Source: a virus. Taken from it: 51,623 nt of DNA. Where the stretch lies: IMG/VR virus record IMGVR_UViG_3300030107_005790, positions 1 to 51,623 of that record. One strand, given 5' to 3'. Under the pieces are notes generated by a model. The model did no database searches and had not been told where the DNA came from. It saw only the letters and a program-made list of their open reading frames with translations. Below, piece after piece: positions 101-51,623 of this stretch; positions within the stretch are counted from its first letter, which is position 1; each line of letters begins with the position of its first letter. The translations under genes and the position numbers were made by a program.

Positions 101-896
101 AATTACTAGGAAACCCATTTCGCCTGAAATGACTTATTATCCTCATAGCAGTATGATGCCTATTCCCTTCTTGAGGGCCTAAGTTAATCATTGATTGTAT
201 GCATGGAACTATATTAGAAGGCTCTGTTACTTTCTTTTCTGACCTAATACTAGGTATCTCAGTAACTATATGCTCTTCTAATTCCCCATCTCCAATCATT
301 TCTGTATAAGGAAATTCTAGCCTAGGAGTTTCTGCTAATTTTAGTATTTCATCTGGGCTGCTACTCATGATTTCTCTCATGGTAATTGGAATTTTGTACA
401 ATCCAGTTTTCTGATTCTTTGTATGTTGTACTCTGTATATACCTGTTCTCATATAGACGCTACTATCTATGCCTATATCTTGGAATAAATATTCCATGGT
501 ATACTTTACTACATATGGTAAATCATCAGAGGGACTGAAATTGAACACGCTATTTGGTAATACTAGGTGATATCCTGTACCGCTAAAGAAAGGCTGAATA
601 CTTTCTGAGTCTACTCCCAATTCTTCAAGATGCATAATAGCAGCCTGAGCTTTTTGTTGAGTAAACTCATTAGTATTCTTTTCTTTATCAATATCGATTA
701 GTATCTTATCAATAGCACGTTCGCCTATATACCTTTTTATGGTATTGTTTTCGTCTGCATACTTCTTAGCATCTTCATTGTATAAATACATTGACCTGTA
801 TAAAGGGTCTTTTGAATTTATATATTTTACTAAGTCGTTTTTAGCGATTAGGAGTCCACGATTAAATGGACTCCCTTGTGCTATTTCAACAAACAT
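1..896 (-). CDS. AEP-type primase half of a primase-helicase (cut by contig end)
   Basis: This is the N-terminal 298 residues of a protein that continues at 51523 and ends at 50650. Joined across the junction the gene codes for 589 aa. The archaeo-eukaryotic primase motifs are visible: D68-x-D70 (metal binding), S105-G-T-G-Y-H110 (the S-x-H nucleotide motif) and D144 followed by R150 and R155. A helical stretch at about 220-295 looks like a PriCT-type linker. The start ATG at 896 overlaps the stop of the SSB-like gene by one base (TAATG), so translation is probably coupled. It should make primers for phage replication. AEP enzymes can also polymerise DNA, which matters because no DNA polymerase gene is present. 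Family and fusion are secure; PrimPol activity is inference. Confidence 0.9.
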   Translation of the reverse strand, partial: MFVEIAQGSPFNRGLLIAKNDLVKYINSKDPLYRSMYLYNEDAKKYADENNTIKRYIGERAIDKILIDIDKEKNTNEFTQQKAQAAIMHLEELGVDSESIQPFFSGTGYHLVLPNSVFNFSPSDDLPYVVKYTMEYLFQDIGIDSSVYMRTGIYRVQHTKNQKTGLYKIPITMREIMSSSPDEILKLAETPRLEFPYTEMIGDGELEEHIVTEIPSIRSEKKVTEPSNIVPCIQSMINLGPQEGNRHHTAMRIISHFRRNGFPSNFVKAAMMHWNDNNLEQSEIERLVEDTYNGGYCY

Positions 897-1522
897 TATA
901 AGCTACTTAATCCAGCATCAGCTAGTTCTACCTCTTGATTTGGCGCAGCGGCAGATTCTTTATGCTCTTTAATGTAACCTTGAGACTTCATCCAATTAAC
1001 CTTGTCTTTCAACTTGGTCCTATTTTCAGCAGTGTCTAGGTAAATCTCTGGATAAATAGTAGTAAATACTTTGCCACTACCATTTTTGGATTTTTCTTTA
1101 TAAACATATGCTATATATTTATAATCCATATCTTCTCCAGGCATACCATTAAACCCACATTTATCGTTGAGGAATGATGCAATATCTTTAATGGGCTTTT
1201 CATCATAGGTTTCCCATTCGCCTTGCATGTTGATTCCTGCTTCACATTTGATTACACCGAAGAAATGGTTAATCTTATTTACTACTCTATTCTCTCCTGG
1301 AGTAGCAGTTAGATTGCCATTACCATCTTTGTCGAATCTTCCTGTGATTCTTAGGGTTTTATCATAATCACTTCCTTCTTGTCTAACAGTCACTGAAATA
1401 TAGACATCTGACCAATCATACTTTGAAGATAAATCATCAAAGTCTTTAATTGCTATTTTACAGATGCCATAGAACTTGCTGCCGTCTGAAGGAGATGGTG
1501 TTGTTGGTTTGTATAAAGCCAT
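896..1522 (-). CDS. SSB-like / T7 gp2.5-like DNA-binding protein (candidate)
   Basis: A 208-aa protein starting at ATG 1522 (MALYKPTT), with AGGAGG nine bases upstream. A GTG at 1528 would add two residues but sits too close to that site. The central region is beta-rich (KFYGICKIAIKDF, YISVTVRQ, LRITGRF), suggesting an OB fold. The tail after about residue 185 is loose and ends in a hydrophobic LSSL without a strongly acidic tip. It lies between a Sak4-like ATPase and the primase-helicase, where phages often keep their single-strand binding protein. Its stop overlaps the primase start. No diagnostic motif was recognised, so the function rests on fold impression and position. Confidence 0.55.
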   Translation of the reverse strand: MALYKPTTPSPSDGSKFYGICKIAIKDFDDLSSKYDWSDVYISVTVRQEGSDYDKTLRITGRFDKDGNGNLTATPGENRVVNKINHFFGVIKCEAGINMQGEWETYDEKPIKDIASFLNDKCGFNGMPGEDMDYKYIAYVYKEKSKNGSGKVFTTIYPEIYLDTAENRTKLKDKVNWMKSQGYIKEHKESAAAPNQEVELADAGLSSL

Positions 1523-1527
1523 TTTCA

Positions 1528-2205
1528 CTAGCCTCCTTTTATTGGTTTGTATATATTAGACCACTTAAAATCGACTTCTTCGCCTCTTAAATGTGGACAT
1601 CTACTTCCTGCCTCTATTGCTTCTCCTGATTTAAAAGATACTTTTAATGTTTCTTTTTCAGGGTCTCTAAATACATATCCAATAGCATCACAATCTGCCA
1701 TTATCATATTCTTTAGCTTTCCTGTTATATCTAGACTTTCAGGTTCTACAATAGCTTTCCCTTCTACTATTGCTCTAGCTGACTTTCTATGGCCAACTAG
1801 TATTAGACCTTCACAAATACTCTTAAAAGCCTTTATAGTGTTCATAACTTTATCACGAACTAGTGCGTAACCCTTACCGAAAGATAAATCGGCAAGGGCT
1901 TGCACATCATGTTCAGCGATAACTGCCTTTTCAGCCCAATCAACAATCTTGTCGATGGTATCTAAAGCAATATATCTAAAGTCATGTCCACCATTAGCTT
2001 TTTTGAGAACTTCGATTAGGTCGCCTCTGCTGTTAACCTCTACAATATGACCTTCTACCATATGAGAGCCCTTTTCAGTGTCTACAATAAGACACTTATC
2101 TAGTTTTGACAACATAGTTGTCTTTCCTACTTTTGGGGCTCCGTATAGCAGCAGGATTGCTGGGTTTACAGAGACTACTTTTCTCTTTTTGACTTCTAGT
2201 CTCAT
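1528..2205 (-). CDS. Sak4-like RecA-fold ATPase (phage nucleotide-binding protein)
   Basis: A 225-aa P-loop ATPase. Walker A is G22-A-P-K-V-G-K-T-T30, Walker B is the YIALDTID segment near residue 80, and a sensor-like ILVGHRKSA lies near residue 140. Length and motif spacing fit the phage Sak4/AAA_24 group, RecA-related ATPases that work with SSB in single-strand annealing recombination. The neighbouring SSB-like gene supports this. The ATG at 2205 has GGAG seven bases upstream. Its first 110 bases overlap the 3' end of the ThiF gene in another frame, an unusually long overlap. A general DNA-repair ATPase is the alternative. Confidence 0.85.
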   Translation of the reverse strand: MRLEVKKRKVVSVNPAILLLYGAPKVGKTTMLSKLDKCLIVDTEKGSHMVEGHIVEVNSRGDLIEVLKKANGGHDFRYIALDTIDKIVDWAEKAVIAEHDVQALADLSFGKGYALVRDKVMNTIKAFKSICEGLILVGHRKSARAIVEGKAIVEPESLDITGKLKNMIMADCDAIGYVFRDPEKETLKVSFKSGEAIEAGSRCPHLRGEEVDFKWSNIYKPIKGG

Positions 2206-2875
2206 TTGTGACTCCTCTCTCGTTAAGCACTAGGTGTTGTTTTCTAAAAGACGATGGAGATAACGACTTCCAAATATACGAATAATAAGGCCTATGATGC
2301 AACACATTAAATGCTGCTGATAAGCCTAAACCTGATATTATCGAGGCTGTGAATATCGTATGTTTTTCAGTACAAGGTTCATCTGCAATGTCTATACTCG
2401 GCTTCCATGTATTGAAGAATATATCTTTTTGTTGGCTGCATGTTATAACTTCCATAGTTACAGCTCCCATTCTCATATCTATGAGGAATATTCTTTCATT
2501 CATATCTTTCCAAGCATTCCAAACAGCAAGACGAACCTCCATATTATCTGGAGCCATCATCACTTTGTCTGTTAAGGGTTTTTCTGGTGTCCATGGTTCA
2601 GTATGCTCAATAATTCTACATTTGCTATTGAAATACTTACCAACTTCTTTTGCTGCTGAAGTCTTAGACTTACCAAGGAACTTCTCTGGATACATTGTAG
2701 TGCTGAGATTATGTTCTTCTAAATCATCAAAATCCCATACATGTATCTTTTTAAAGCCCATAATTGCTGCGTTGATGACCAGAGACGAGCCGACTCCCCC
2801 TACGCCTATTATAGTCAACTCGTCTAGTTTGTTCTGGTCAATCATATCTTTATTTCTTAGATACCTATTTCTCAT
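2096..2875 (-). CDS. ThiF/E1-like ubiquitin-activating enzyme (PRTRC ThiF-like)
   Basis: A 259-aa E1-superfamily adenylyltransferase. The Rossmann nucleotide loop is G24-V-G-G-V-G-S30 and the acidic strand is D48-F-D50-D-L-E-E-H-N56-L, the typical D-x-D-x(5)-N-L pattern. A conserved-looking EPCTEK (C168) is a possible catalytic or metal cysteine. E1-like enzymes adenylate the C-terminus of a ubiquitin-like protein and pass it to a cysteine. The start ATG overlaps the JAMM stop (ATGA). The last ~36 codons overlap the Sak4-like gene. With the upstream JAMM, E2-like, Ubl and ParB genes it reproduces the PRTRC gene set. Family is secure; the substrate being the 82-aa Ubl is inference. Confidence 0.92.
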   Translation of the reverse strand: MRNRYLRNKDMIDQNKLDELTIIGVGGVGSSLVINAAIMGFKKIHVWDFDDLEEHNLSTTMYPEKFLGKSKTSAAKEVGKYFNSKCRIIEHTEPWTPEKPLTDKVMMAPDNMEVRLAVWNAWKDMNERIFLIDMRMGAVTMEVITCSQQKDIFFNTWKPSIDIADEPCTEKHTIFTASIISGLGLSAAFNVLHHRPYYSYIWKSLSPSSFRKQHLVLNERGVTNETRSQKEKSSLCKPSNPAAIRSPKSRKDNYVVKTR

Positions 2876-3705
2876 GATAACAGTCCAAAAGAATCATTCC
2901 AAGAGGCTATATCATCTGGCTCCTCTCCAAAAGTTTCTGTATATTTCTTAGAAACCTTATCGAATCTTTTCTTTATTTTGTTATATTTCTTTTTAGATAT
3001 CTTTCCATGCTCAAGATTAGCTTCAGCCTGAGTCATTTCTTTCTCTACAGCTTCATACTCTTCTTCTAGCCTATCTTCTTCTTTTAAGGCTTTATTATCT
3101 TCATAAAACCCACCCCAAAGAGTTCTTTGGCCTACTCCTGGCTTAGTACGACTGAGTCCATTGTAAAATACAGTTGGTGATTTCTTCCGTTTTTTATCCA
3201 TTTCATCAGCGTATTTAACCCATTCATCAAGAGGCTTGATTTTAGGAGATTTAACTTCAATATCTTTAGTTTCTACTAATTGAATTTGATTGAAGTTATC
3301 TAAATAGCTTATACCAAATGCAAACTTTGTTTTAGTATGAGCTACTACTAGACTGGGATATCCTACTTTATTGGCAGCTTCTTCAAGTTGCTGTTTATCT
3401 GTTCCACTAAAGTATGCTCCCATTCCATGGTGCGAATGAATTAATCCCATAAAGCATTTCTGGTAATCTGGATGCTTATCATATATTTCTTTTGATATTT
3501 CAACCCAATCTTCACCATCCCATTCAGTGCTTGTTGCGTCTCCCAGGTCAAGTGTTACGAAACCTCTGAGTGTCCATTCTGCAGGGAATCCATCATCATC
3601 GTACTTAACGCTATAAAATGCTGGTCCACTCCACTCAGTGTTTTTATAACGACCCAAGAGATAATTGATGTGTTTCTGGCTTTGCTGTGTTATTATTAAT
3701 TTCAT
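2872..3705 (-). CDS. JAMM/MPN metalloprotease (JAB, PRTRC protein A-like)
   Basis: A 277-aa protein with an intact JAMM zinc site: E24 in TEWSG, then H90-S-H92, seven residues, S100 and D103. This is the catalytic signature of deubiquitinating JAB/MPN+ peptidases. Residues 205-260 are a charged, probably coiled-coil tail, longer than a minimal JAB domain. Start ATG 3705 has AGGAG upstream and its first 62 bases overlap the end of the E2-like gene. In PRTRC and related cassettes the JAB protein trims or removes the ubiquitin-like modifier. Here the Ubl ends in Ser-Gly-Lys, so cleavage after Gly would be a plausible activation step (inference). Confidence 0.93.
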   Translation of the reverse strand: MKLIITQQSQKHINYLLGRYKNTEWSGPAFYSVKYDDDGFPAEWTLRGFVTLDLGDATSTEWDGEDWVEISKEIYDKHPDYQKCFMGLIHSHHGMGAYFSGTDKQQLEEAANKVGYPSLVVAHTKTKFAFGISYLDNFNQIQLVETKDIEVKSPKIKPLDEWVKYADEMDKKRKKSPTVFYNGLSRTKPGVGQRTLWGGFYEDNKALKEEDRLEEEYEAVEKEMTQAEANLEHGKISKKKYNKIKKRFDKVSKKYTETFGEEPDDIASWNDSFGLLS

Positions 3706-5107
3706 TTAATACTTTTCTCCTTTCTCTTTCGAGGTATGCTAGTTTCTCTTTGTTTACTATTAGTTTTAACGATTCCAACTCTTCTTTCATATAATTAAAA
3801 CGCTCTACAGCTTCATCTAATAAGGTACTTGAAGATGGTATTGTTTTTTCTACTTCTTTCGTTATATCAAAAGAATAGCTGGTATCGTGTATTGATTCTT
3901 CTGCTCTAAGTATGAATACATCAGGATTTCCAATTAGCCACTTAATAGCAGCCATAGGAGGGGATGAATCATTATCGCCTGTTACATTACTTTGAATCCA
4001 ATTGTAATGAGGTGACAATTTTTTAAGTTCTTTTGAGTCAACCTTGAATCTCATATTCAAATAAAATGAGCCATTGTTATAAAGCATTTTATATGCAAGC
4101 TCTTTCATTTTCATAAAGTCAGGTATAACCTTTCCTAAATCAGCCCTAAGTGATTCTTTTGTGTTAAATTTCATCCACAAAGAATTGTATTCATTTTGTT
4201 TCTCTCTGTCATTCCAAGATGAATATGGATTTGCTACCCTAAACTTTTCTAATATCTCTAAAGTTTGTTCTATAGGCATTGTTGCTCCACCATCTTCATC
4301 TGGACTTATTAAGTTCCAAAATGCAAATGCATTATAGATATCTTTACTTGTTCTAAAACAGCTGACCCTATATCTTTCATTCATTATATTATGAAACTTT
4401 CTTTTCACTCTATAAGTCTTAAAAGTAATAGGCTTAAATGATTTGAATTTTTTAGCTTCTTCTTCATTTAAATCATCTACTATATAGTAATAAGCTTCTG
4501 GGTCTACAGTCAATTCATCTTCTCTTGCATCAAAGTATTTACCTCTGGTGTATACATCTCTACCATTGTATTCTTCGATATATTTACGAATTAACTTACA
4601 AGCACCATAGAAATTAGCAGACCATAAAGCATTGTCTATTGCTGTTTTATGACCACCAAAACATCCTTTACCTGCTTGAATATGTGGATGTTCTGCAGGT
4701 CTAAGACAATGTTCTCCATGTCTATCACATCCATCTTGATGGAAAGCAAGTTCCCATCCTCCATAAGGATTAAATTTCAATTCTGCTATATAATCTCCTG
4801 GATAGATGAATCTTCTACATTTAAATCTTGGATTGATGATTCTAATCCACAATGTAAGAGTATATGTTGTCTTTTTTATAACATCTCCATCTTTCTCATT
4901 CTTCATAGTATTAGAATGTGACTCAATTGAGTAAATGTTAAACAATTTCTTTTCATGCTGCACATTTACTTGAGATATCATCTTTTCTTGCATTTTCATA
5001 GCCTCTTTGTCTTTCAGAAGCTTATAAGTACTGCTATAAGGCAGTTCTAATGTCTCTATATTATGTATAATCTTATTTACATAACTGCTAAAGCTTATTA
5101 ATCGCAT
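3644..5107 (-). CDS. E2-like conjugating protein with long C-terminal extension (PRTRC protein B-like)
   Basis: A 487-aa protein. The start is set at ATG 5107 because GGAGAG lies four bases upstream; an ATG at 5119 overlaps that site. Residues ~80-180 look like an E2 fold: beta strands, then H140-P-H-I-Q-A-G-K-G-C149, closely resembling the E2 active-site HPN/HPH-x-x-G-x-C pattern, then two helices. C149 would be the thioester cysteine. Extra Cys and His residues just before it may bind metal. The remaining ~300 residues are unrecognised and make it much longer than ordinary E2 or PRTRC-B proteins. Position between Ubl and JAMM genes supports the call. E2 assignment is by motif and context. 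Confidence 0.75.
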   Translation of the reverse strand: MRLISFSSYVNKIIHNIETLELPYSSTYKLLKDKEAMKMQEKMISQVNVQHEKKLFNIYSIESHSNTMKNEKDGDVIKKTTYTLTLWIRIINPRFKCRRFIYPGDYIAELKFNPYGGWELAFHQDGCDRHGEHCLRPAEHPHIQAGKGCFGGHKTAIDNALWSANFYGACKLIRKYIEEYNGRDVYTRGKYFDAREDELTVDPEAYYYIVDDLNEEEAKKFKSFKPITFKTYRVKRKFHNIMNERYRVSCFRTSKDIYNAFAFWNLISPDEDGGATMPIEQTLEILEKFRVANPYSSWNDREKQNEYNSLWMKFNTKESLRADLGKVIPDFMKMKELAYKMLYNNGSFYLNMRFKVDSKELKKLSPHYNWIQSNVTGDNDSSPPMAAIKWLIGNPDVFILRAEESIHDTSYSFDITKEVEKTIPSSSTLLDEAVERFNYMKEELESLKLIVNKEKLAYLERERRKVLNEINNNTAKPETHQLSLGSL

Positions 5108-5122
5108 TTTTCTCTCCATTTT

Positions 5123-5183
5123 AGCAAGCAGGGCAAGATAAGGAGCTCGAATGAATAAAACGAGAAACTTACCCTGCCTGCTT
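5123..5183. other. Hairpin in the Ubl/E2 gap
   Basis: GCAGGG (5128-5133) pairs with CCCTGC (5172-5177), with an inner CTCG/CGAG pair at 5146-5149 and 5161-5164. An alternative register pairs AAGCAGG with CCTGCTT. It fills the only gap between the Ubl stop and the E2 start. There is no U-tract, so it is not a clear terminator. A role in message processing or in setting E2 levels is inference. Confidence 0.5.
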
Positions 5184-5197
5184 AGGTTAACCTATCA

Positions 5198-5446
5198 CTA
5201 TTTACCAGATTTGTTACTTTTCTTGTGAACTTGCAAGTAATCATCAGGCTGAAGAACTGTATTAACAGTTACTCTGTCTCTTGCTTCTCCATTGCCTGTT
5301 GTTATTTCAAGAAATACATCAGTTGGTGAGATGTTATCTTCTTGAAGTACATCACCTACAGTCATGCCTGACTTTAAATCTTTAGATTGAAGTCTATTGC
5401 CTGTCATAAATGATGATAGTTTGTATGTAAGATTGCTATTTGCCAT
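5198..5446 (-). CDS. Ubiquitin-like beta-grasp protein (PRTRC protein C / MoaD-ThiS-like candidate)
   Basis: An 82-aa protein. Residues 26-75 follow the ThiS/MoaD/Ubl pattern: SGMTVGDVLQE (strand then helix), VFLEIT, DRVTVNTVL, then QPDDYLQVH (the l-x-x-x-D-x-v-x-v end of a beta-grasp fold). The C-terminus is N-K-S-G-K, with a single Gly rather than Gly-Gly. It lies directly upstream of E2-like, JAMM and E1-like genes, exactly where PRTRC cassettes place their Ubl. Start ATG 5446 overlaps the previous gene by 11 bases and has GAGG upstream. The predicted role is the conjugated modifier. Fold is inferred from sequence pattern, and the atypical tail leaves conjugation competence open. Confidence 0.6.
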   Translation of the reverse strand: MANSNLTYKLSSFMTGNRLQSKDLKSGMTVGDVLQEDNISPTDVFLEITTGNGEARDRVTVNTVLQPDDYLQVHKKSNKSGK

Positions 5447-5705
5447 TTGTCGTTATCTCCTCTAGGTTTGTTGTATATACATTATTATTCCATTCAAAAG
5501 TCATTCCAGGTCCAAGTAAATTTCTTTGGAACTTAAATTCCTTCTCGAATGGTGTTAACTCGCTTTTCTCTACGCTTTTCTCTATTGGTGGCAATATTAC
5601 AATGCTATTGCCGTTCGAACATTCATCTAATGATACTTTTATTAAGTATATCATTAAAATTATTACTATTGATAAAAGTGCTATTAAAGACTTGAATAAA
5701 TTCAT
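5436..5705 (-). CDS. Membrane-anchored small protein in the Ubl cassette
   Basis: An 89-aa protein with an N-terminal hydrophobic segment (about residues 5-25), probably a signal anchor, and a soluble domain containing GPGMTFEWNNNVY. No family is recognised. It overlaps the Ubl gene by 11 bases, so it belongs to the cassette operon. It takes the place of the accessory genes (E/F) that sit between ParB and Ubl in plasmid PRTRC systems, but I see no specific similarity. It could tether conjugation to the inner membrane (speculation). Confidence 0.75.
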   Translation of the reverse strand: MNLFKSLIALLSIVIILMIYLIKVSLDECSNGNSIVILPPIEKSVEKSELTPFEKEFKFQRNLLGPGMTFEWNNNVYTTNLEEITTNGK

Positions 5706-5732
5706 TTCTTTCTCCTTTTTGTTTTAAATGAT

Positions 5733-5757
5733 GGGGAGAAGTGGCATACTCCTCCCC
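5733..5757. other. GC-rich hairpin after the ParB-like gene
   Basis: GGGGAG (5733-5738) and CTCCCC (5752-5757) form a six-pair stem in the 121-base gap between the ParB-like stop and the next minus-strand start. Bases 5762-5780 add a weaker GTAAAA/TTTTAC pairing. On the minus strand no U-run follows, so intrinsic termination is doubtful. It may be an attenuator or processing site. Confidence 0.5.
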
Positions 5758-5826
5758 GAGGGTAAAAACACACTATTTTACTCACGCTGTACAGTTCGAT
5801 GAGCTTATCCATGTGTTAGGGAATGT

Positions 5827-6504
5827 TTAAGACTTAGCTTTTTTAGGCAACCTTAAGCTACCTGGGGCAACATATAGAGCTTTTAATTTCTTTCTCTTCT
5901 CTATGCAGCCAATAAGCTGTCTTTTTGGAATGAAGTTGTACATTGCATGCTTTGTCTTCATAATACTTTCGACATTTAGCATATAATATGCAAATTTCTT
6001 CATTTGAACTTGAGTACTTTGACCAGTATAATCTCTATACATTTTCATTACTGTATGAATACTTGCTGGTGAAGTGTTTCTTTCTATTAATAGTCTAAAA
6101 AGACCCCAAGCTGCTTTCTTTCCAAGCCAAGTTTCTAAAGGCTTTATATAAAGATTTAGATACTTTTCTGGAATAGAAGCTTTGTTCATGTAACGCCATA
6201 GATACTGAGCTCCATTCATTCTAAGTGTATGTTCATTTGTTGCTAAAAAGAATGAATCTGTTGTTTTTTGCTCAATCTGATGCTGTATTACATTGACTTT
6301 CTTCCAATTTAATTCAAGGATACATCTGAATCTTCTATGTCCATTGATTATTACATTGTTTTTATCGATTGTTAAAGGCTCAATAAGACCTCTTTCTTTT
6401 ATATCTTCCCTCAAGCCGTCAATAGAACGATTAGCCACTGTTCTTGATGGTGGATTGTATATTGATGGATTAATTGAAGATACTTTTATCTCTTTTAGCT
6501 TCAT
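5827..6504 (-). CDS. ParB-like nuclease/partition-domain protein (PRTRC ParB-like)
   Basis: A 225-aa protein. Residues 1-100 are a ParB/Srx N-terminal domain: LKEIKVSSINPS, IDGLREDIKERGLIEPLTI, then N54-G-H-R-R58, the G-x-R-R box that binds CTP or phosphate in ParB. The remainder is helical and basic, without a recognised ParB DNA-binding HTH. Start ATG 6504 has GGAGAG upstream. No ParA partner is present, arguing against ordinary partition. ParB-domain proteins head PRTRC cassettes, and this one heads the operon that contains Ubl, E2-like, JAMM and E1-like genes. A transcription or DNA-clamp role is possible. Confidence 0.88.
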   Translation of the reverse strand: MKLKEIKVSSINPSIYNPPSRTVANRSIDGLREDIKERGLIEPLTIDKNNVIINGHRRFRCILELNWKKVNVIQHQIEQKTTDSFFLATNEHTLRMNGAQYLWRYMNKASIPEKYLNLYIKPLETWLGKKAAWGLFRLLIERNTSPASIHTVMKMYRDYTGQSTQVQMKKFAYYMLNVESIMKTKHAMYNFIPKRQLIGCIEKRKKLKALYVAPGSLRLPKKAKS

Positions 6505-6949
6505 TTTCTCTCCTTTTTGCTATTGTTGTTGTAATTATACAGGCGTGGAGTTTTTATACTACCTCAACCGAGGCCTACTGCAACTTCCAGCCAGTCGATT
6601 CCCTTGCTGCGTATATGTTGTACTTAATAAAGCTCCTGTTTATTAAATCCCGCAGTTATTTGTGCCTGTAATTATTTGAGAGAACCTCACATTTTCCTTT
6701 GCCTACTAGCTGACAGTTTCACCTAGGTTGTAGGACTTATTTTCCCTATCTGTTTCACGAAGCTGGTACCAATCCCAGTCTATGACCACATTGATAGGAG
6801 GACCAGTTATTGGCTCTCTCAATTATTTGGGGAGGCTTGACCCTCGTTAGTTACAGGGCACCTGAAAAGGTTATCGTAGTAACTCGCCTGTCAATATCCT
6901 CCCCTATTTAAACTAATCTGACATGAGGTTTGTACCATGCATCCACAGA
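6505..6949. other. Gene-free structured stretch upstream of the ParB/Ubl operon
   Basis: No credible gene lies here, although short frames exist. The stretch is visibly less AT-rich than the genes around it and rich in pairings. TTGAGAGA (6676-6683) is complementary to TCTCTCAA (6814-6821). The motif AATTATTTG occurs twice (6670-6678 and 6820-6828). A compact foldable domain lies at 6829-6904. Position suggests the leader and promoter region of the ParB-Ubl-E1 operon, or a non-coding RNA. I could not match it to a known riboswitch or intron. Confidence 0.6.
6829..6904 (+). ncRNA. Candidate structured RNA domain (strand uncertain)
   Basis: Nested pairings are visible. GGGGAGG (6829-6835) pairs with CCTCCCC (6898-6904), TTGAC (6837-6841) with GTCAA (6890-6894), AGTTAC (6849-6854) with GTAACT (6879-6884), and ACCT-GAAA-AGGT (6860-6871) closes a GNRA-type tetraloop. 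The GAAA loop exists only on the plus strand, which is antisense to the surrounding operon; the other stems work on either strand. The nesting is too regular for chance, but the function is unknown. Confidence 0.45.
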
Positions 6950-7162
6950 TTATGTTGTTTCATTAGTTCTTATGGCTACATATTTATCCCATAAGCCATT
7001 ATCTTTTAAGAACTTATCATTAAACTCCTGATTAAGCCTTTGCTGTTTAATCATTTGTTTAGCTTGTTCTATAGTTCTACGCATCTCTGCGTTCTGACTC
7101 TTTAAGTCTTCGATAGAAAGATTAAGCTCGTTAATATATTCTATCCTTCTTTTATCGCTCAT
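6950..7162 (-). CDS. Small coiled-coil protein
   Basis: A 70-aa, mostly helical protein. Residues 10-45 show heptad-like spacing (INELNLSIEDLKSQNAEMRR, then TIEQAKQMIKQQ) and should form a coiled coil. No family is recognised. Its ATG overlaps the stop of the 118-aa membrane protein (ATGA), so the two are translationally coupled and may act together. It ends just before the structured 6505-6949 stretch. Confidence 0.75.
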   Translation of the reverse strand: MSDKRRIEYINELNLSIEDLKSQNAEMRRTIEQAKQMIKQQRLNQEFNDKFLKDNGLWDKYVAIRTNETT

Positions 7163-7515
7163 TTTAAGAGTCCTTTAACAGAACCGACATTATTCTTCAT
7201 AGACTTTAAATCTGCTAATAAAGAGTCAATCCTGCTACTTGTAGCTTGTGCTGTTGATAACATAGATGTATAAATCTCTGATTTCATTGCATCCATTTCT
7301 TCAGCATATTCTGTTACTCTATCACTTGTAGCTAAAAGCATTTCATTAACATCACTTTTATAGGCTACTAAATCGCCTTTTACAAGATATAGATTGTGCT
7401 TAATAACATCAATCTTTTCTTTAACATCATTGGTTACAGTGGTTACTACCACTATATTTATTGCCGACATTAGAAATAAGATACTTAATGTTATGAACAT
7501 TGATGATTTTTTCAT
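7159..7515 (-). CDS. Membrane-anchored coiled-coil protein
   Basis: A 118-aa protein. Residues 5-28 are a hydrophobic anchor following a MKKSS start; the rest is helical with regular hydrophobic spacing. Topology resembles small membrane-anchored chemoreceptor-like or spanin-like coiled coils, but no family is recognised. ATG 7515 has GAGG six bases upstream. It is coupled by ATGA to the following 70-aa coiled-coil gene. An early inner-membrane role, such as superinfection exclusion, is speculation. Confidence 0.78.
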   Translation of the reverse strand: MKKSSMFITLSILFLMSAINIVVVTTVTNDVKEKIDVIKHNLYLVKGDLVAYKSDVNEMLLATSDRVTEYAEEMDAMKSEIYTSMLSTAQATSSRIDSLLADLKSMKNNVGSVKGLLK

Positions 7516-37600: not shown

Positions 37601-40600
37601 ATGGCCAATGAGTTTCAACCTAGCTTAAGTCTAGAAGAAGTACAAACCTATGCGAAAGACTTAAAAGCTTTCCCTCATCATTATGATGACAATCAAAAAG
37701 AACAATTAAAAGCACACGCTGATTATTATGGTGTACCTATGTACACAGGTGAGTTTGACATTACAGATGCCGTTAAACAGCTTGCAGGTGGCCTTGTAGA
37801 GGGTTTTACTACCCTAAACATAGTTGATGCCCCTGACAACGAATATGAAGCTATAATACGTAATATAGGGCATTTAGCAGGATTTGCACCTGGCATTGCT
37901 GTTGCCCCCTTAAATGCTGTTAGATTAACAGGATTAGCAAAAGTTGCAGGTGCTTTAGGTAAAAAATCCCTTCCTATGTTTGGAGCAGAACTTGCTACCA
38001 AACAAGCCAAAAAGATATTTAAAGGAGCATTAAGTGGTAAGCTAGGCTCTGCTAGAGCAGGTCAGGAAGCTATGGGCTTTCTTCAAAAGCGAGCTGGTGC
38101 TGCTAAACATGTAGTAGAAGGTGCATTCCATCTTGGAACAGCATCTGCTATTTCTGCATGGCAAGGTGGTGTCGATGAAATGATGCATTCTTTTATAGGA
38201 GGTGCTAAAGCAGGTGCTTTCTTCAGGCTTTTAGGTAATGTTAAAATGTCTAAGCAACCTCAAGTTCAAAAGAATCTTCAAAGGCTTTCTGGGTCCTTAT
38301 TTATGGGTCTCCCTGCTACAGCAAGAGGAGCAACTACTCCTGAACAGGTATATGAGTATTTAATGGGTGCTTATTTCGGAGGAAGCGAAGTTCATTGGAC
38401 AAAAGCAAAGTCTCAGCAGTTTATCCAAAAAGTAAATAAAGATATATATAAAGATGGTTTTGGCTTATTAAAAGCTAAAGGAGAAATAGAACTTCATCCT
38501 GAATTTGAAAATCTTGACCCAATGGTTCAAAAGCAAGCAAAGAAAGATTGGGCTAATATTGTAGGTAAAAAGAAATGGAATTATATAGCTGGCCATATAT
38601 TAAGTAAACGTGGTGAGCTAGAGAATTTTAATGAAATTATCAAAAAGGCTAAAGAAACTGGTGACTATACTGAATATTATAATTTATTAGAAAAGTACGA
38701 ACTAATTGACCCTGCAGAAGCTAGCAATTGGAAAAGGAATCACAGAGAATCAGAAGTATTAGAGTCCCATGCTAACATCATGGAACAAACTCAAGAGGCT
38801 TTTGATATACAAGAATCAAGAGATAATTTAAAACCTGGAGACTGGATTAAGCGTGCTCCTGATAATATTGAGATTACAGGACCATTACAAGTTAGTAAGA
38901 TACATAAGTCAGATTCTGGGAAATTTGTAGAAGTTAAAGGCTCTAAAGAAGCGTTTCCTATTGAAGAGATAAAGATTGTTGAAGCTCCTAAAGAGCAAAG
39001 AGTTCCTACAGAGACTGAATTTAAAGTTGAACTAGAAAAAGGAGGTCGTAAACCTGAAGAAGCTCCCGTTGAACCTATTAAACCTGAGAAAGAAGCAGAA
39101 AAAATTGACAAAGTTCCTAAGCCTAAGCTATATGTAGGCGATGCTGAGATAGTTTATAAGAAAATTGGCAAAAAAAGAGGACCTAAAGATATGGTCCCTG
39201 CTCGAACTATATATGGGAAAGATGGTGTTAATAAGATAGAAATTGATAAGGATTTACTAAGAAAGAAATACGATGAAAAAGCATGGACAAAGCCTAAAGT
39301 TAAAGGTGTAACTCCATTGCCTGAAAATGCTTTTAGAAACTATAAAGAATGGGAAGTATTTGCTATAGGGCATGAGCAAGGACATGCTTTAGAAGGTCCT
39401 GGACCAAAAAGAGGTACTCCTGAATATGTTGCAAATGAAAATAAGTTAAATCAATATGGACTTGATGCTGTTCAAAGATATAGAGAGGCTCAAGAAACAC
39501 AAACTATTGAAACTAGAAAGAAAGAATCAAAAGAATTTAAGTTAGATATTACTCCAGATGAGATTCAGAACTATGATTTTAACAGTGATTTAGATGTAGG
39601 AATGCAAAGTGCTGCTCCTGGAGAGTTTAAAATAGAAACCTTTGCAAGAACTAAACTTCCTAGTAAAATTAAAGAATTAGCCCAAAAAGACGGGATTACA
39701 ACTGAAGTAGGTATAAACCAGGCTATAAGCAAAATCTCGCAGAATATAGCTAAAATAATCGATAAAAACCTTACTTATAGCAATGAAATCAAGTCTAATG
39801 AGGTATTAAAGGAGTTAAAAGCAGAATATGGCATTGATTTCCTTAAAAAAGGAAAGGAAGATAATCTAGCTATAGGTATGATACGAAACTTCATGATGAG
39901 GAAGAATCAATTAAGACCTTATGAAACTATGAATTTCACTATGGATAAAGGGATTATTGGAGAGCTTAAACCTGGTGTTCAGTATATACCTATGGGTGAG
40001 CCTGGAGCTCAAAAGACATCACCAGCAGGTAAGGCTATTAATCCTGTTACACCTAGAACTCCTTTTGATAGCTTTATGGAAAAGTATTACTCTCCAGAAG
40101 AAGGTAGAGGATTTATGACATGGGAAAGTATATCAGCTAGAGGAAAGGATGGCCGTTTTGTTGATTATGAGATATCAAGGTTTAGAAATGAATTAAGAAA
40201 TAATATTCTAAGAGATAAGATAGATGCTATACCTAAAGTTCTTTCTTATAAGAATAGGATGAAAGAGATAAATAAGTTAGTTGAAAAAGAAGAGAATAAA
40301 ATCTTTCACTCAATAGCACGGGAAGCTGCTGAAAAAGACCATTATCTCTTTAGTGGTAAAGGTGATTTCGATGGATTCTTCTTTGCTAAGGTACATCCAA
40401 AAATTAAGCAGCTTAATGTTAAGATTACTGATATCTTTTCAGGAGAATCTAATAGAAGTTGGATTGAAAAATCTAGAAAAGATTTTCTTTTAGGTGCTGG
40501 AAAGAATACGAACAAAAAAAGACTCTTGGAAATACATGATACAGGACTATTAAATAATGTTTTCCATCAAATAGAAACAATCAATGGGATAGAGATTGTA

Positions 40601-43600
40601 TCTGCAAAGCAAGTAAATAAGCTACTTAAAAAGATGATGCAGAAAGGGTCTGGATTCTTAAATGACTCTAAAGGTTTTAATAAAAGGTCTCAAATCATAC
40701 TTACTAATGGATTTAATTCTGATGGGAATTTTATTAGAAGGCATTTAGGACTTAAAGAGGATTCTTATAGTAAAAAAACTGGCGAACTTGTTGAAGGCGA
40801 AAAGCTAAAGTTTGAAGTTGTTCCTGATTTTAATGCAAAGGCTCCTAAAAAAGACTCTAATGTATTATTATTACCCAATACTCAAATAATGGAGTCAACG
40901 GATGGTGGATTTAGAACTCATACAAAACTTGTTAATGCTATGAATTTAGATGGAGGTCAAGAATTTTCTGGTCATAATAAGAATATGCATAATGGTGTTA
41001 TTTATAAAGATGGCAATCCATTAGGGGCATTGCTGCTTAAAGGTATGAATCACAATATGGATAAAGCAGGTAATAAAAGATTAGAAGAAAAAGGGATATG
41101 GGGAGAGATACCTGAATCTGTTATAAAACAATTAGGTGGAGTTAAGGTAGGGGATATTATTGAGATAGACCCTAGTAACTTTAAATATGTACTCTCTACT
41201 ACTGAAAGCTCTCATATGTGGACACCTCAAAAGCTATATAAGCAATTATCTACATCAGCTACAATGGCTGCTAAAAATCCAGAGCTATACAAAGAAGCTG
41301 TTAATGATTTTACATCTCAAACTATGAAGAGATTCTATGGAAATGATGTCTTTAATAAACTTCTTGAGACTACTTTAAAGAAGCCTACTAAAGAAAGTTT
41401 AGATAAGATAATGGATAATATAGATGAAATAGGTGTAAAGAATATTCTAGAAGCAGCAAGGAAGAAAGGCAATGAGCAATTTACTCAAAGATTCTATGCT
41501 CATGTACTTGATTTGAATGTTCAAAAAGAGATTATCAGAGAGATTGAAAATTCTGGAGAAATTAATAATACACAAGCAAATAAACAGATAGCTGAAATGG
41601 AAGGATTTCTTGGAGGAGTTAAGGAAGAAATTAAGTTAGCTGCTGAATGGGCTAAAGAGAATAACAATGCTGATTTCTTAGAAGTTTATCATAATAACAA
41701 TTACTTTCAAAATGCTTTAACCAATTGGGTCAATGCACAGGTATTAACACCTAAGATAAAAAATAGTGCTTTAACCATAATGAGACCTCAAGATGTTGAG
41801 TCTACTAAACTTATGAAATTTAATCAAGAACCAGCAATGATTAAAGAGAATGGTAAATGGAAAAGAAATGATAAGATAATGGAATTTTGGCTTGATGAAG
41901 GGGGCAGGAAGAAACTAATTGAAACAGGTATAGAAGGTATTGGCGATATTAAGCTAGGTGATTTATGGGATAACTTTAAAGCTAACAAATATACAAAAGA
42001 GCAAAATACTGAAATAAAAGAAGTCCTTAGAGCTGTTGTTGGTCGTGTTCCTCAAGATTCGGTATCTGGTGCTGTAGTACTCAGATTTGCAGGATTCTCA
42101 GGAAGAGAAGGCTATGGAACTTGGATGCATGGTGTAAATGAGAAGTTCTTAGGTGGTGCTGATAAAGATGGAGATAAAGCATTTGTATACTTTGGAGGTA
42201 AGGGAGGATTAAGCAAAAAGACAAAGGACTTTATTGATGCTAATTGGGATGAATATATTGATTATTCGGGTAAAGAACCTACACTTAAAGAACCTAAAAA
42301 TCCTAAAAGTGAAGAGATATTTGGAGTTCCTTTAAAAAAGAGTGATAAGATGTATTATGATAATAGCGTAGGATTCTTCTCTCCTTCAGTTAGAAAGACA
42401 ATCGCTAGTAACGCTGTTAGAAGTAGACAAGCATTAGGACAAAACTCCACACTTAAGACTATTATACAGTCTGCTTATTCTATAGACAGAGCGTTAAACA
42501 GAGCAACAGATGGGGATATCAATATAAGAGGTACAAGATATAATATAACAATGACCCCTAAGAAGGAAGTTATTAATGGAAGAGAATTAATAGCATCATC
42601 TATTGCCTACTCTGCTGACCCTTATGATGTATTTGCATTAAAACCATATAACCATGTTAATAGAGTCCTAATAAAGTCTTTTTATGATTTTAGTGTAAAG
42701 CCAATGATTAAGAAAGGTAATAAATTTGTACCTGCAAAAGCAACTAAGGGAACTGTAGACTTTGCTATTAATCAATTTATTGATAGAACATTAAATAGCG
42801 AGAAAACTTTTTCTACTATTAGAGCTGTAAGGAAGCTTAATCAAGGTTTATATGGTAGAAATTGGGCTTCAAATAGAAAGTTTTATGCTGGAGAAAAGAT
42901 GGAAAAGTTTGCTGAAGCTCAAGGTATTGATGCTTTAGGAGACAACTTCTTACCTAGAGCTGGCAGTATGATAAAACAAACTTTATATAGAGACCATATA
43001 TTAAAGAGAGTTAATGAAACTGTATTTGAGAATATCTTAAAAAATGTTAATGAAAATGTAGGAAGATACGATTATTTAAAAGAACTAACAGGTCGTTCTA
43101 CTTTTAGATTGCCTGACAATAAATTTATAGAATTAAATAAACTTATATTAGAAAGATTTGACATGCTAACCGATATACAGTCAGTAGAGGCTAGCGAGTT
43201 TATGGGCTTTTTAAAACCTATATGGCAAATGAAAGCATATAATGAAAAATATAGTACATTCAATAGAATGATTGACCCAGTAAGGGCAAAAAATATGGCT
43301 GAAACTAAAGAGGGGAGAGTTGAACTTCTTGAGCAAATCCTTTCGTATGGAGAGAAATCAGTTAAAAGAGATTTAGACCAAGCTGTATCTCAAGAGATTA
43401 TTCATAAGTTGATTACAGCTAGGAATCTTTCTAAGAAAGAATTAGCCAAAGTAAAAGAAGTTTATGAGAAAGCTGAGGAGATTAAAGCTAGAAGTTATCT
43501 CAAAAATAGAGATAGTCGTAATGAAACACCTGACCCCAATGACCCATTTATACAAGCAGGAAAAACTTTAAAAGAAAAGGTTCCTCAAAAAGAAAGACAT

Positions 43601-46600
43601 AAAGTTGAAACCCCTGAAGATAGAGCAGAGCTTAATAGAGAACAAATTGATATTGAAATTAGAAAATATAAAGATACCTTAACTCCAAAGCTTCAAGATA
43701 TATTTGATGCTGCTCTATTAGGCAATATAAACAGAGGTAATACAGCAAAGAGAATTAAGCGTTTAGAAAAGATTTTAAAGGAATCTTTCCATAAAACTCA
43801 TGGAAAGCCAGGAGAAACTGCTGAACAATTCAAGGAAAGGATGAGGAGGGTTGAAATTGAACTCCAACAACTAATTCATGATGGAGCTAAGCATAATACA
43901 TCTGTTTTAGGGTGGCAGAGCAAAGAGGTTAATAGGAATGTTAAAAAGTTTTTCATTGGAAAGAAGCTTTCTATCTTTGATAAGTCTAAACCAGAGAAAG
44001 TTGAAAAGATTGTTAATAATGCTAAGAAGAAACTTGAAACTACATCTGAAATTCAGAATGAAATAAAAGAACCTATAGAAAAGATTAAAAAGCAAATTAA
44101 AAAAGAAATGGAAGTAGAGCAACTTTCATTTGATTTTGGTAAAGGCTCTAAACCTGAGATTAAAAAGATATTAGCAAATGAAATAGAGATAAAGCTTAAT
44201 AACTTAGATAAATATGTAGAAAAGCTAGTAAATGAACCTCTACCTTTAAGGGAGAGAAATATTGACAAGTTGCTTGAAGATGTTGTAGATAAGCATATTG
44301 TAGAACTGCAACATCAAAAGAACATTGACCACTTACTTGAGATTGACCCTTCTAGAGGCCTTAGAGGTTTGGTCAAAGGCAAGATGAGTGACCTGCCAAA
44401 AGAATATCAATCTGTAGTAGCAGAATTACAAGAACACTTAAAATTTTACAATAACAAAATAAGTCATAATTTCGCTGAAATTGTGGGAGGTATATTAAAA
44501 AAAGAAGTAAATACTCTAAACTTGCATGATTATAAGGTCTTGAATAATTACTTTAAAGACCTTAGAGGAGGAAGCTTTTTCCAAAAGATATTTGGAGATA
44601 AGGCACCTGAAATTCATAAACGCTATTACTGGTTATTCCCAGATAGCGTTAATAAAGAAATGATGAAATATGAGATAGATTGGCTCAAAAAAGAAGGATT
44701 AGTTCTTACCAAGGAAGGAACAATGAAGACTGCTAATGTTGCTGTTCCAACCTGGACCCTTTCTAAGCTTACTCACTTTGTAGCTAAGATGCAAGACCAG
44801 GCAGCTGGGCAAGCTGATGAATGGATTGGAAACTTAAAGACTGATATGTTATTTCTTGGTAATGTTGCTGAAGGAGAAACCTTAAGACAAATAGCAGTCA
44901 GGAAGAGAGAGCTTGACTTACAGAATGTATCTCCAGCTGAAAAGAAAGAGCTTACAGATAATTATAACAAGATATTGAAAGAATCTAAATATGAACAAAA
45001 GCTAAAGAATAAGAGATATACTATTACCAATGCTGAAGGCAAACGTGAAGAGCTTACTGGAGAGCAAATTGTAGACAGAATAAATAATTCTTATACTAAG
45101 TTCTTTACAAAGATGTATGACTTTATAAAGGGTAAGGGTGGGCTGACTGATAAAGATAACATTCCAGAAGCTTTAAAGCAATTTATTGATAAGAAAGACC
45201 CTTGGCAGGATGTTGAAGCTACTGTTCCAAAGATAAATTGGAAGAAGTTTTTAAAGTATATGGAAGATGCTTATAATAGGGGAGAAGACGTTTCTTATGA
45301 GTTTGGAATAGATGGCCTTAGAATGGTATCTAATTCTATGCTAGTTGATTTTGCTAAAGAATTAGAAGATGCAGGCAAAGCAAAAAAGGGCAGTTTTTCT
45401 TCTAGGCTAAAAAGGAGAAAAATAGAACCAACTGGATTCCAAGGAGATAAAACTGGACAATCTGCTGGGTATTGGGCTAGAATGATGACTAGTCCTTCTG
45501 CAGCTATTGAGGCTGCTAAAAAGCAAATTGAACTTATTAAAGCTGATACTAAGCTTAGTAAAGAAGCTAAAGACAAGAAAATAGCAGAAGTTCTTATAAG
45601 GCAGCACTCTCTTACTGGTGATTGGCATTTCAATGAAATGGATGTATATGAAAATTTTGATGCTGCTGTTGATGTTATAATTAAAAAGCAGAAAAAGCAA
45701 GAAGGAGTTGGTATTGATTGGTTTGATGCTAATCAAGTTAGCCCTAATATGCGTAAACGTACAGGAGTAGCAAGTGGTTATTCTATTGATGCTACTGTAC
45801 CCGAAACTTATGCTAGAAATATAGCTAATCTATACTCTAAGCATTTATCACAAATTTACTCTAGGGCTACTGTTGATAAAGCTTATAAAAGACATGCTAA
45901 GAAATGGGGAGAAGAACTTGCTTGGGGCTGGAGGCAATACTTTACATTGTATGTAAATGATGCACTTGGAAATCCTGTAAGAATACCTGATAATGTTTTA
46001 GATAGCCCAGTTATGAAAGTTAAAGGTACACCTTATGCTTGGTGGGCTGATGATAAAATGTTAGATAGAGTTAACTCTATAGCTAAGAAGCTAGGAGTTG
46101 GCGGCAGAGACCTACCTGAAGGACTCGAACCTGTAACTATGCATAGAATGAGGCATTGGGGTAATTTAGAAGCACAATATCAAATGGCATCATTATTAGC
46201 ACACCCTAAGTCTATGGTTACTAATATATTTGGTGGTGCTATGCATACTGTAGAGTCTGTTGGATTTAGAACATGGAGAAACGCTAGGAATTTAGATTAT
46301 CTAAGAAAGATTAATCCTGAATGGAAATCAATAGAAGACTTAAATGCCTTTGTATTAGAGCATGGAGTTATTCCTGAGTATATATCTTATGAAGCAGGTT
46401 TGTCTAAAGAGGTTCGTACTGCTAATGCTCAGAATTTTATAAAAGACGTTGTTAATAAGGTTAAGAAAAATCCTGATTTAAAGAATACAGACCTTATGAC
46501 ACTAGCTAAAGAGCATGGCGTAACTGATAGAGTTAGAAATTTTGCTGCTAAGTTCTTAACTGTTCCTGAGAAGGCACTGCGTAGAGATGCGTTTATGGCT

Positions 46601-50653: not shown

Positions 50654-51623
50654 ATATCAGTTCTCCTCATTCTAAAGCTTGGAGTCCATTCTAATTCACA
50701 AGAAAATAACTCTCCATCTGTATTCTTAAACATCTGAACAGTTTTATTCTTAGAATTAGCTTGTCCTTTTAAGCCAATTACTTTTCTACTAGCATTCTCA
50801 ATTGCTCCTGAGCCTTTGCCAGCGTACAAGTCTAGAACTTCGTTACGTGAATAATCCCGTGCTACTTGTGATATTTGTATGATAATGATATCCATATTAA
50901 CAGCCATATTAGACAAACTATGAGAAATATATTTTATTTGTTCGTATTCTGACCTTATGTTGCTAGGCGTTGCTACTAAATCAATATAGTCAACGATTAC
51001 AACAGCAGGTTGCAGCTCTCTTATTTTTCCCTTTATCTGTTCTAATGTAGGTGAAACTGTTTGTATAGATAGATGCTGTAATTGATGACCATGCTTTTCA
51101 TATATACCTGAATAGTTGTCATTAACAGTATCTTTATCAGTATCGCTTACTATCTGTAAGTGCCTTTTATGCATATACCAATCTGATAATTCTAGAGATA
51201 GGAATAATGTAGGAATTTGATATTTCTTATCAATCTCATTCTTTACAAAGTCCAATCCTAGTACCAGATTCTGTGCAAATGTAGTTTTATTACATCCTGT
51301 AGGGCCAAATATAGTAACTAGCTCTCCAGGATATATTTTACTATCAACACTCAATCCAAGCATTCCTGATAAATCTACACATCTACCACTAAAGTCAGTT
51401 GTCAACCTTTCATGTAGCTCTCCTTGCAATTCCTCGGCACCTTTAACCTCTATAAGATAATCTTTCCTCTTAAAGAATACACACCTTGGTTTACAATGTT
51501 TAACCATCAATTTATCTTGACAACTGTAGCAATATCCACCGTTATAAGTGTCCTCAACCAATCTTTCTATCTCTGATTGTTCAAGGTTGTTATCATTCCA
51601 ATGCATCATTGCAGCCTTTACAA
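50650..51623 (-). CDS. DnaB-like helicase half of the primase-helicase (cut by contig end)
   Basis: This is the C-terminal part of the 589-aa fusion begun at 896; an in-frame ATG at 51609 is internal, not the start. In full-length numbering a C297-x-x-C300, C309, C313 zinc site follows the primase. The RecA-like helicase then carries Walker A G372-P-T-G-C-N-K-T-T380, Walker B VVIVDYIDL (D477) and IIIIQISQVARDY. It unwinds DNA for primase and host polymerase. No separate DnaB loader is seen. Confidence 0.92.
   Translation of the reverse strand, partial: VKAAMMHWNDNNLEQSEIERLVEDTYNGGYCYSCQDKLMVKHCKPRCVFFKRKDYLIEVKGAEELQGELHERLTTDFSGRCVDLSGMLGLSVDSKIYPGELVTIFGPTGCNKTTFAQNLVLGLDFVKNEIDKKYQIPTLFLSLELSDWYMHKRHLQIVSDTDKDTVNDNYSGIYEKHGHQLQHLSIQTVSPTLEQIKGKIRELQPAVVIVDYIDLVATPSNIRSEYEQIKYISHSLSNMAVNMDIIIIQISQVARDYSRNEVLDLYAGKGSGAIENASRKVIGLKGQANSKNKTVQMFKNTDGELFSCELEWTPSFRMRRTDI
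51524..51623. repeat. Terminal direct repeat, right copy
   Basis: Matches 1-100 except base 51622 (A, versus G at 99). The difference turns a TTC codon into TTT and leaves the protein unchanged, consistent with population variation in the sampled phage. Confidence 0.95.

Follow-up and report, generated by a model that had tools for sequence, protein, structure and literature searches.

A candidate ubiquitin-like conjugation pathway encoded beside the DNA-replication genes of a phage

What would a virus of bacteria do with a set of genes for conjugating a ubiquitin-like protein (Ubl), placed among those for its own DNA replication? Most of what is known of Ubl pathways in bacteria concerns host defence or plasmid cassettes of unknown role. 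The question is raised by positions 2096 to 6504 of the IMG/VR virus record IMGVR_UViG_3300030107_005790, whose whole length of 51,623 nucleotides is the window analysed here. Our analysis indicates that four genes in this interval, which we call the cassette, probably make up a phage-encoded, JAMM-processed Ubl conjugation pathway that is expressed with the DNA-replication genes. That the Ubl is truly conjugated to proteins is a part of this reading that we hold with good confidence.

An earlier note, made from the sequence of the same window, had described six consecutive minus-strand genes here, encoding in transcription order a ParB-like protein, a membrane-anchored protein, a beta-grasp Ubl, an E2-like protein, a JAMM protease and a ThiF/E1-like protein, and had likened them to the PRTRC cassettes of plasmids. 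All six open reading frames (ORFs) are present at that place and in that order. Iyer et al. 2006 (PMC1779556) describe bacterial operons of such a kind, and among phages only a tail-assembly pair of a Ubl and a JAB peptidase.

Catalytic motifs and predicted folds of the four core proteins

The four core genes are the following, with the evidence that identifies each.

2096 to 2875, minus strand: E1-like (ThiF-fold) activating enzyme; Pfam ThiF, 61.3 bits
2872 to 3705, minus strand: JAMM/JAB metalloprotease; Pfam Prok-JAB, 26.4 bits against a cut-off of 25
3644 to 5107, minus strand: E2-like protein, a 491-residue ORF that opens at 5119 and has a Shine-Dalgarno-backed ATG at 5107; HPHIQAGKGC motif and conservation among homologs
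5198 to 5446, minus strand: ubiquitin-like protein of 82 residues, ending ...NKSGK; conserved Ser80-Gly81 and predicted beta-grasp fold

Relatives were recovered from IMG/VR with E1 and JAMM profiles, which yielded 264 E1 and 214 JAMM sequences. We analysed the loci of the best 80 of the 264 and the best 80 of the 214, some of which lie on the same contig, and collected from them 109 distinct E1, 112 JAMM, 102 E2-like and 55 Ubl sequences.

The nucleotide-binding loop that the earlier note had recognised in the E1-like protein reads GVGGVGSS, with D48 and K71 further along, and takes the form GxGG(V/I)GS across the family. Invariant in 109/109 sequences are G24, G26, G27, S30, D48, D50, N56, K71, D110, M112, R115, D133, R135, C168, K171 and T173. 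With its ThiF domain, GxGGxGS ATP-binding loop, DxD and Arg/Lys/Asp adenylation residues, the protein belongs to the ThiF/MoeB/Uba superfamily, and its profile matches in the PDB are a ThiF-type protein, UBA5 and UBA2. C168 lies within (E)PCTxK(H/Q)T and, being present in every sequence, has the character expected of an acyl-transfer-type cysteine. In the protease, the metal ligands E24, H90, H92, S100 and D103, which had been listed from the single sequence, are all present, are invariant in all sequences that have letters at those positions, and conform to the JAMM/MPN+ pattern E...HxH...SxxD.

The earlier note had let its reading depend on two points, that the 82-residue protein folds as a beta-grasp and that C149 of the E2-like protein occupies an E2 active-site position; our results refute neither. 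The AlphaFold2 model of the Ubl is a beta-grasp, with a mean predicted local distance difference test score (pLDDT) of 85 and a predicted template modelling score of 0.68. Its best solved counterparts by Foldseek are TtuB, ubiquitin-like domains, SUMO and NEDD8 (probability about 1.0, TM-score about 0.5-0.6), and profile matches of the family are led by ThiS (1.7e-4), with SUMO2 and SAMP2 weaker. The only invariant residues, S80 and G81, stand at the end of the fold in 55/55 distinct Ubls, so that the protein combines a predicted beta-grasp with the conserved glycine tail of ubiquitin-like proteins. The invariant glycine is the last residue in 8 sequences and is followed by one residue in 37; the rest have 2, 3, 4, 9, 19 or 97. 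Such variable tails would fit trimming by the JAMM protease, since an enzyme that exposes the glycine would account for them, and the operon contains the gene for one.

The active site claimed for the E2-like protein, of the type HPH...C, was likewise recovered. A GGAGA Shine-Dalgarno sequence immediately precedes the second ATG of the ORF, at 5107, and counted from there the cysteine of HPHIQAGKGC is C149, as the earlier numbering had it; counted from 5119, the motif spans residues 144-153 and the cysteine is C153. Homologs share 53% identity with the protein of the studied virus in one case and otherwise 11-21% (n = 59), and a search of viral contigs and annotated phages with this single sequence returned nothing. 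Among the 59 full-length proteins the sole invariant columns are H144, P145, H146 and C153, and because nothing else is invariant, we regard the motif as standing above chance. In UBC domains, an HPN-type loop precedes the catalytic cysteine by about 10 residues. The AlphaFold2 model (pLDDT 74 overall, about 90 around the motif) places helices at 29-49, four strands at 60-131, a short strand at 137-141, the HPH-C loop and a helix at 157-166, an order of predicted strands and helices that fits the one expected of a UBC domain. The C-terminal half is long, helical and variable.

The same cassette in cultured and annotated phages

A tblastn search with the E1 of the studied virus led to phages of Flavobacterium psychrophilum and to crAss-like gut phages of the Steigviridae (Crassvirales). 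The order Ubl, E2-like, JAMM, ThiF recurs in both groups, as in crAss001 (gp79-gp76), DAC15 (gp048-gp051) and FpV4 (gp50-gp53), again in the replication arm, with a primase, a uracil-DNA glycosylase and a Sak4-like gene nearby. Current annotations there are "metalloprotease domain", "thiamine biosynthesis protein, ThiF" and hypothetical, or hypothetical throughout. The JAMM protease and the E1 cysteine are shared with our cassette, as are the end of the Ubl fold (KSG, ASG or similar) and an E2 motif of the form H(S/P)H...C.G. In contrast to our virus, the Ubl of these phages continues into a C-terminal extension of more than 100 residues, and their E2 motif is usually HSH with a longer loop.

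Comparison of the E2 core profile with that of the crAss-type E2 gave a probability of 74% and an E value of 2.8e-5, with the alignment falling on the active-site loop; unrelated controls scored about 0.1%. Foldseek searches of viral models with the E2-like protein retrieved proteins of uncultured viruses, a protein of 420 residues (probability 0.92), which is as long as the E2-like protein of Flavobacterium phages, and one from a crAss-like virus (probability 0.80). We consider it likely that the 491-residue protein is an E2.

The open text of PubMed Central yielded no paper that connects ubiquitin-like conjugation with crAss-like phages or with genes carried by phages. Our reading would turn the crAss-like genes now labelled "thiamine biosynthesis ThiF" and "metalloprotease" into members of a single pathway, and it places the cassette within phages open to culture and mutation, namely crAss001 and DAC15 of Bacteroides. 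When genome contigs were scanned with the E1 profile, no bacterial copy came up; the scan used one narrow peptide pattern and does not imply absence from bacteria.

Conservation, gene order and neighbouring genes

On the minus strand, transcription runs through the genes for the ParB-domain protein, the small membrane protein, the 82-residue Ubl, the 491-residue E2-like protein, JAMM, ThiF, a Sak4-like protein, an SSB-like protein and the primase/helicase. The features that flank the core are these.

5827 to 6504, minus strand: ParB N-domain protein, accessory; Pfam ParB_N, 37.7 bits
5436 to 5705, minus strand: small protein with a single transmembrane segment, accessory, sequence not conserved; identified by hydrophobicity
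1528 to 2205, minus strand: Sak4-like single-stranded DNA-annealing protein; PHROG 124, 96 bits, and synteny
896 to 1528, minus strand: SSB-like gene, conserved after Sak4; role assigned by position and synteny

The setting beside Sak4, SSB and primase genes that the earlier note had described is thus confirmed, with the primase/helicase following the SSB-like gene; a family search with the SSB-like protein gave no match. After removal of duplicates, the dominant order among relatives is Ubl-E2-JAMM-E1-Sak4-SSB, or whatever part of it the contig holds, and the Sak4-like gene directly follows E1 in almost all of them. Median junctions are overlaps of 68 nucleotides between E2 and JAMM, 26 between JAMM and E1, and 35 between E1 and Sak4; only the Ubl-E2 junction has a spacer, with a median of 95 nucleotides. 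In the studied virus, the E1 tail is overprinted on the start of Sak4, since the two ORFs share 110 nucleotides (2096-2205) in different frames, and the relative L002 has an overlap of like arrangement. The catalytic residues stay invariant even though the proteins are otherwise down to 11-12% identity, and we read this confinement of conservation to predicted catalytic positions as the signature of a working pathway.

The earlier note had counted ParB as belonging to the set and the membrane protein as a fixed part of it, and neither claim was supported. Of the Ubl loci whose contigs extend at least 1.5 kb upstream (53 in all), three have ParB and 18 a small hydrophobic, transmembrane-like ORF; we therefore treat the six-gene unit as a four-gene core with accessories and rejected ParB as a component of the system.

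Within relatives chosen by their terminase, E1 is present in 6/6 records of at least 46 kb, and shorter records are mixed. A set of sister phages (L241-L245) has a similar terminase and a divergent cassette. Their Ubl ends exactly in Gly-Gly (NNKVGG), or in Gly-Gly plus two residues, and the E2 slot reads HP(Y/F)I...C(L/F)(D/G), in one case GNGNICLGEL, which is close to the eukaryotic E2 motif. In these phages, the type of cassette appears to have been swapped while the neighbours stayed.

Relation to PRTRC and other known systems

PRTRC cassettes belong to plasmids and integrative and conjugative elements (the row 6d type of Iyer 2006), and we compared the phage genes with twelve plasmid PRTRC loci and with models TIGR03734-03742. 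Complete plasmid loci are ordered ParB-E-C-F-B-A-ThiF, and the genes of the studied virus follow the same plan of ParB...Ubl, E2, JAB and ThiF on one strand. Both have separate E1, E2 and JAB proteins, and SSB or DnaN genes lie near PRTRC. The PRTRC Ubl (PRTRC_C) shares a conserved glycine end with variable tails, and PRTRC_ThiF shares a conserved (S)CS-type cysteine. The differences are in the details: the end of PRTRC_C is G(T/A)KG, against (K)SG in the phage, the loop of PRTRC_B is N....C.G without the HPH that precedes the phage cysteine, the phage E2 is twice as large, with its helical half, and ParB, E and F are not conserved in phage loci.

Profile alignments (hhalign) reached 98.7% for E1 with PRTRC_ThiF and 87.9% for JAMM with PRTRC_A, and were not significant for E2 (1%) and Ubl (0.7%). 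Against the models themselves, the E1 of the studied virus was unmatched by TIGR03736 (ThiF, cut-off 144.75 bits) at E values up to 1; 29 of 36 relatives matched it at E <= 0.01 (best 9.4e-11), fewer than matched ThiF models, and the crAss E1 scored 39.7 bits, below the cut-off. JAMM scored 12.5 bits with TIGR03735 (PRTRC_A, cut-off 101.8 bits), a family that recurs as a weak match in 21 of 35 relatives. The E2-like protein was unmatched by TIGR03737/PF14460 (Prok-E2_D), and the Ubl by TIGR03738/PF14454 (Prok_Ub). A plasmid search with the E1 of the studied virus gave only noise, and one with the crAss E1 recovered PRTRC ThiF.

The family searches that the earlier note had suggested thus confirm ThiF (61.3 bits) and ParB_N (37.7 bits), while the PRTRC A, B and C models fall below cut-off or find no match. 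Its description of the locus as PRTRC-like holds for gene order and for a distant kinship of E1 and JAMM, and does not extend to membership. The cassette is organised like PRTRC and its E1 and JAMM probably share ancestry with those of PRTRC; judged by these profiles, it falls outside the family.

Other systems are further removed. Phages lambda and T1 have a ubiquitin-like protein (TAPI) and a JAB peptidase (TAPK) for tail assembly, without E1 or E2, in a tail module rather than a replication arm (PMC1779556). The Bil and Bub pathways resemble the cassette in having a separate Ubl, E1, E2 and JAMM-type protease on a eukaryote-like plan, but are operons that serve host defence or stress rather than genes of phages. 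Among the BilA-BilD models, only BilD matched, to E1 at 15.4 bits, and we do not class the cassette as Bil. The regulators of Bub operons (PMC13373217) were not seen at the locus, where no systematic search for them was made. The cassette also differs from type II cyclic-oligonucleotide-based antiphage signalling systems (CBASS), in that E1 and E2 are separate genes and not fused as in Cap2. CD-NTase models matched none of the ten proteins at 896-7515, the part of the genome that was scanned. With no E1-E2 fusion, the earlier exclusion of CBASS is reasonable.

A proposed pathway and its alternatives

We propose that the JAMM protease would trim the Ubl just after Ser-Gly, a step not needed where the gene ends at the glycine. 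The ThiF-type nucleotide site of E1 would then adenylate the glycine carboxylate, and the Ubl would be captured on Cys168 and moved to Cys149 of the E2-like protein (C153 in the long ORF), beside the HPH loop. From there, E2 would place the Ubl on a target lysine, with the large variable helical half perhaps selecting the target, and JAMM could reverse the bond. The likeliest targets would be DNA-bound phage or host proteins in replication or recombination, such as Sak4, the SSB-like protein or the primase/helicase. Plasmid PRTRC cassettes offer an analogy, being placed next to ParB, SSB or DnaN genes. This part of the proposal, the replication-linked targets, drawn from gene position, is tentative, and we are somewhat more doubtful of it than convinced.

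Several points weigh against the proposed pathway. No E3 or target could be identified. Neither the E2-like protein nor the Ubl is recognised by a family model (each had zero matches in Pfam and NCBIfam). A whole-chain Foldseek search of the E2-like model against the PDB returned no solved E2, the long and less certain helical half dominating the comparison, and the predicted UBC fold is argued from motif and topology. The many Ubls with a single residue after the glycine could be tolerated without processing. Finally, some relatives have no detectable cassette, and those records may be fragments.

The main rival is counter-defence, in which the Ubl would be attached to host defence proteins or would compete with host Ubl pathways of the Bil, Bub or CBASS type. 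Anti-defence genes usually have a scattered distribution and gather in accessory regions. The cassette does share its arm with control elements and small, variable genes, but it is kept in near-complete relatives and in crAss-like phages with fixed Sak4, SSB and primase neighbours, which would be unusual for genes of this class. We consider counter-defence unlikely, even though Bil and its relatives in bacteria act against phages and an immune role has been proposed for Bub operons (PMC13373217).

A sulfur carrier system would explain why the best PDB profile match of the Ubl is ThiS, its best fold match TtuB, and the best matches of E1 are ThiF models; a ThiS/MoaD-like Ubl, a ThiF-like adenylyltransferase and JAMM processing would then serve a thiolated product, for example in tRNA or nucleotide modification, and operons of JAB with ThiS/MoaD have been described (Iyer 2006, PMC1779556). 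We think this improbable because it leaves the E2-like protein with its invariant HPH and cysteine without a role, no sulfur-metabolism gene lies nearby, and E1, read directly, has neither a rhodanese domain nor CxxC zinc motifs.

A true PRTRC cassette, acquired from a plasmid or an integrative element and serving genome partition or copy control, appears to us similarly far from probable. The order ParB-x-Ubl-E2-JAB-E1 equals that of plasmid PRTRC, and the E1 and JAMM alignments and the recurrent PRTRC_A match point the same way; against it stand sub-cut-off scores for every PRTRC model, the unmatched Ubl and E2, the scarcity of ParB and the lack of HPH in PRTRC_B. Least probable of all, the 491-residue protein, which has no family or solved-fold match, would be some other Cys/His protein within an E1-JAMM-Ubl module of different output, a reading opposed by the invariance of only H, P, H and C, by their E2-like spacing before a helix, and by the HP(Y/F)I...NICLG or VCLD of the sister versions.

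We return to phage-encoded conjugation as the preferred reading. In its widest form, Ubl conjugation would be a core component of the replication arm across a lineage of about 51.5 kb that we read from the sample set as marine, and across Flavobacterium and crAss-like phages, where it would reversibly tag replication and recombination proteins. This wider form is speculative, and we rate it as possible rather than probable. If true, a virus of bacteria regulates the duplication of its own genome through protein tagging. On the preferred reading, the phage would carry every enzyme of the pathway, each conserved although the proteins have diverged widely, and the role of PRTRC-type cassettes could be examined directly in a phage that has a plaque phenotype.

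Genome record and structured RNA elements

The ends of the record share an overlap of 100 nucleotides with one mismatch near the edge (positions 1-100 and 51524-51623), and the primase/helicase gene runs from one end into the other; IMGVR_UViG_3300030107_005790 therefore probably represents a full genome, about 51.5 kb long and circularly permuted. From its crAss and Flavobacterium relatives, our guess is that the host belongs to the Bacteroidota. A single ORF of 3248 residues at 37601-47347 makes up one fifth of the genome, and its product has the look of a very large virion protein or an internal polyvalent one.

Within the core, a single junction leaves a wide gap, and it carries a hairpin.

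5120 to 5197, minus strand: Ubl-E2 spacer with hairpin (GCAGGCAGGGTAAG...CTTGCCCTGCTTGC)

Homologous Ubl-E2 spacers have a median fold z of -2.9 (68 distinct), and Rfam has no family for these spacer RNAs. Upstream of ParB, at 6676-6822 on the minus strand, lies a structured RNA element whose core, CAATAACTGGTCCTnnAAGyC ... GGCAAAGGAATATGTGA, is set within an outer stem; it too has no Rfam match. The outer stem of this first class forms 7 base pairs in 69/69 copies, with base-pair changes (A-U/U-A/G-C) further out. Across IMG/VR, 86 stretches have the exact core, frequently within Ubl-E2 spacers or ahead of helicase-like genes, and the element is also present in L061 (about 4540-4650), L023, L051, L057, L008, L038, L063, L242 and others. 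A second class of hairpin occupies the same spacers, with the core TATGGG ... CTACTAAGACATCTAGCGCA and the variant ACATCTAGCGGG, in L022 (about 5510-5595), L031 (about 880-965), L062, L064, L036 and L052; a related core occurs in L039, L243 and L244. Some first-class elements have the hairpin GAGCCTCATGGGCAAGTCCCGTGGACGAA as an insertion, as does the spacer hairpin of L129.

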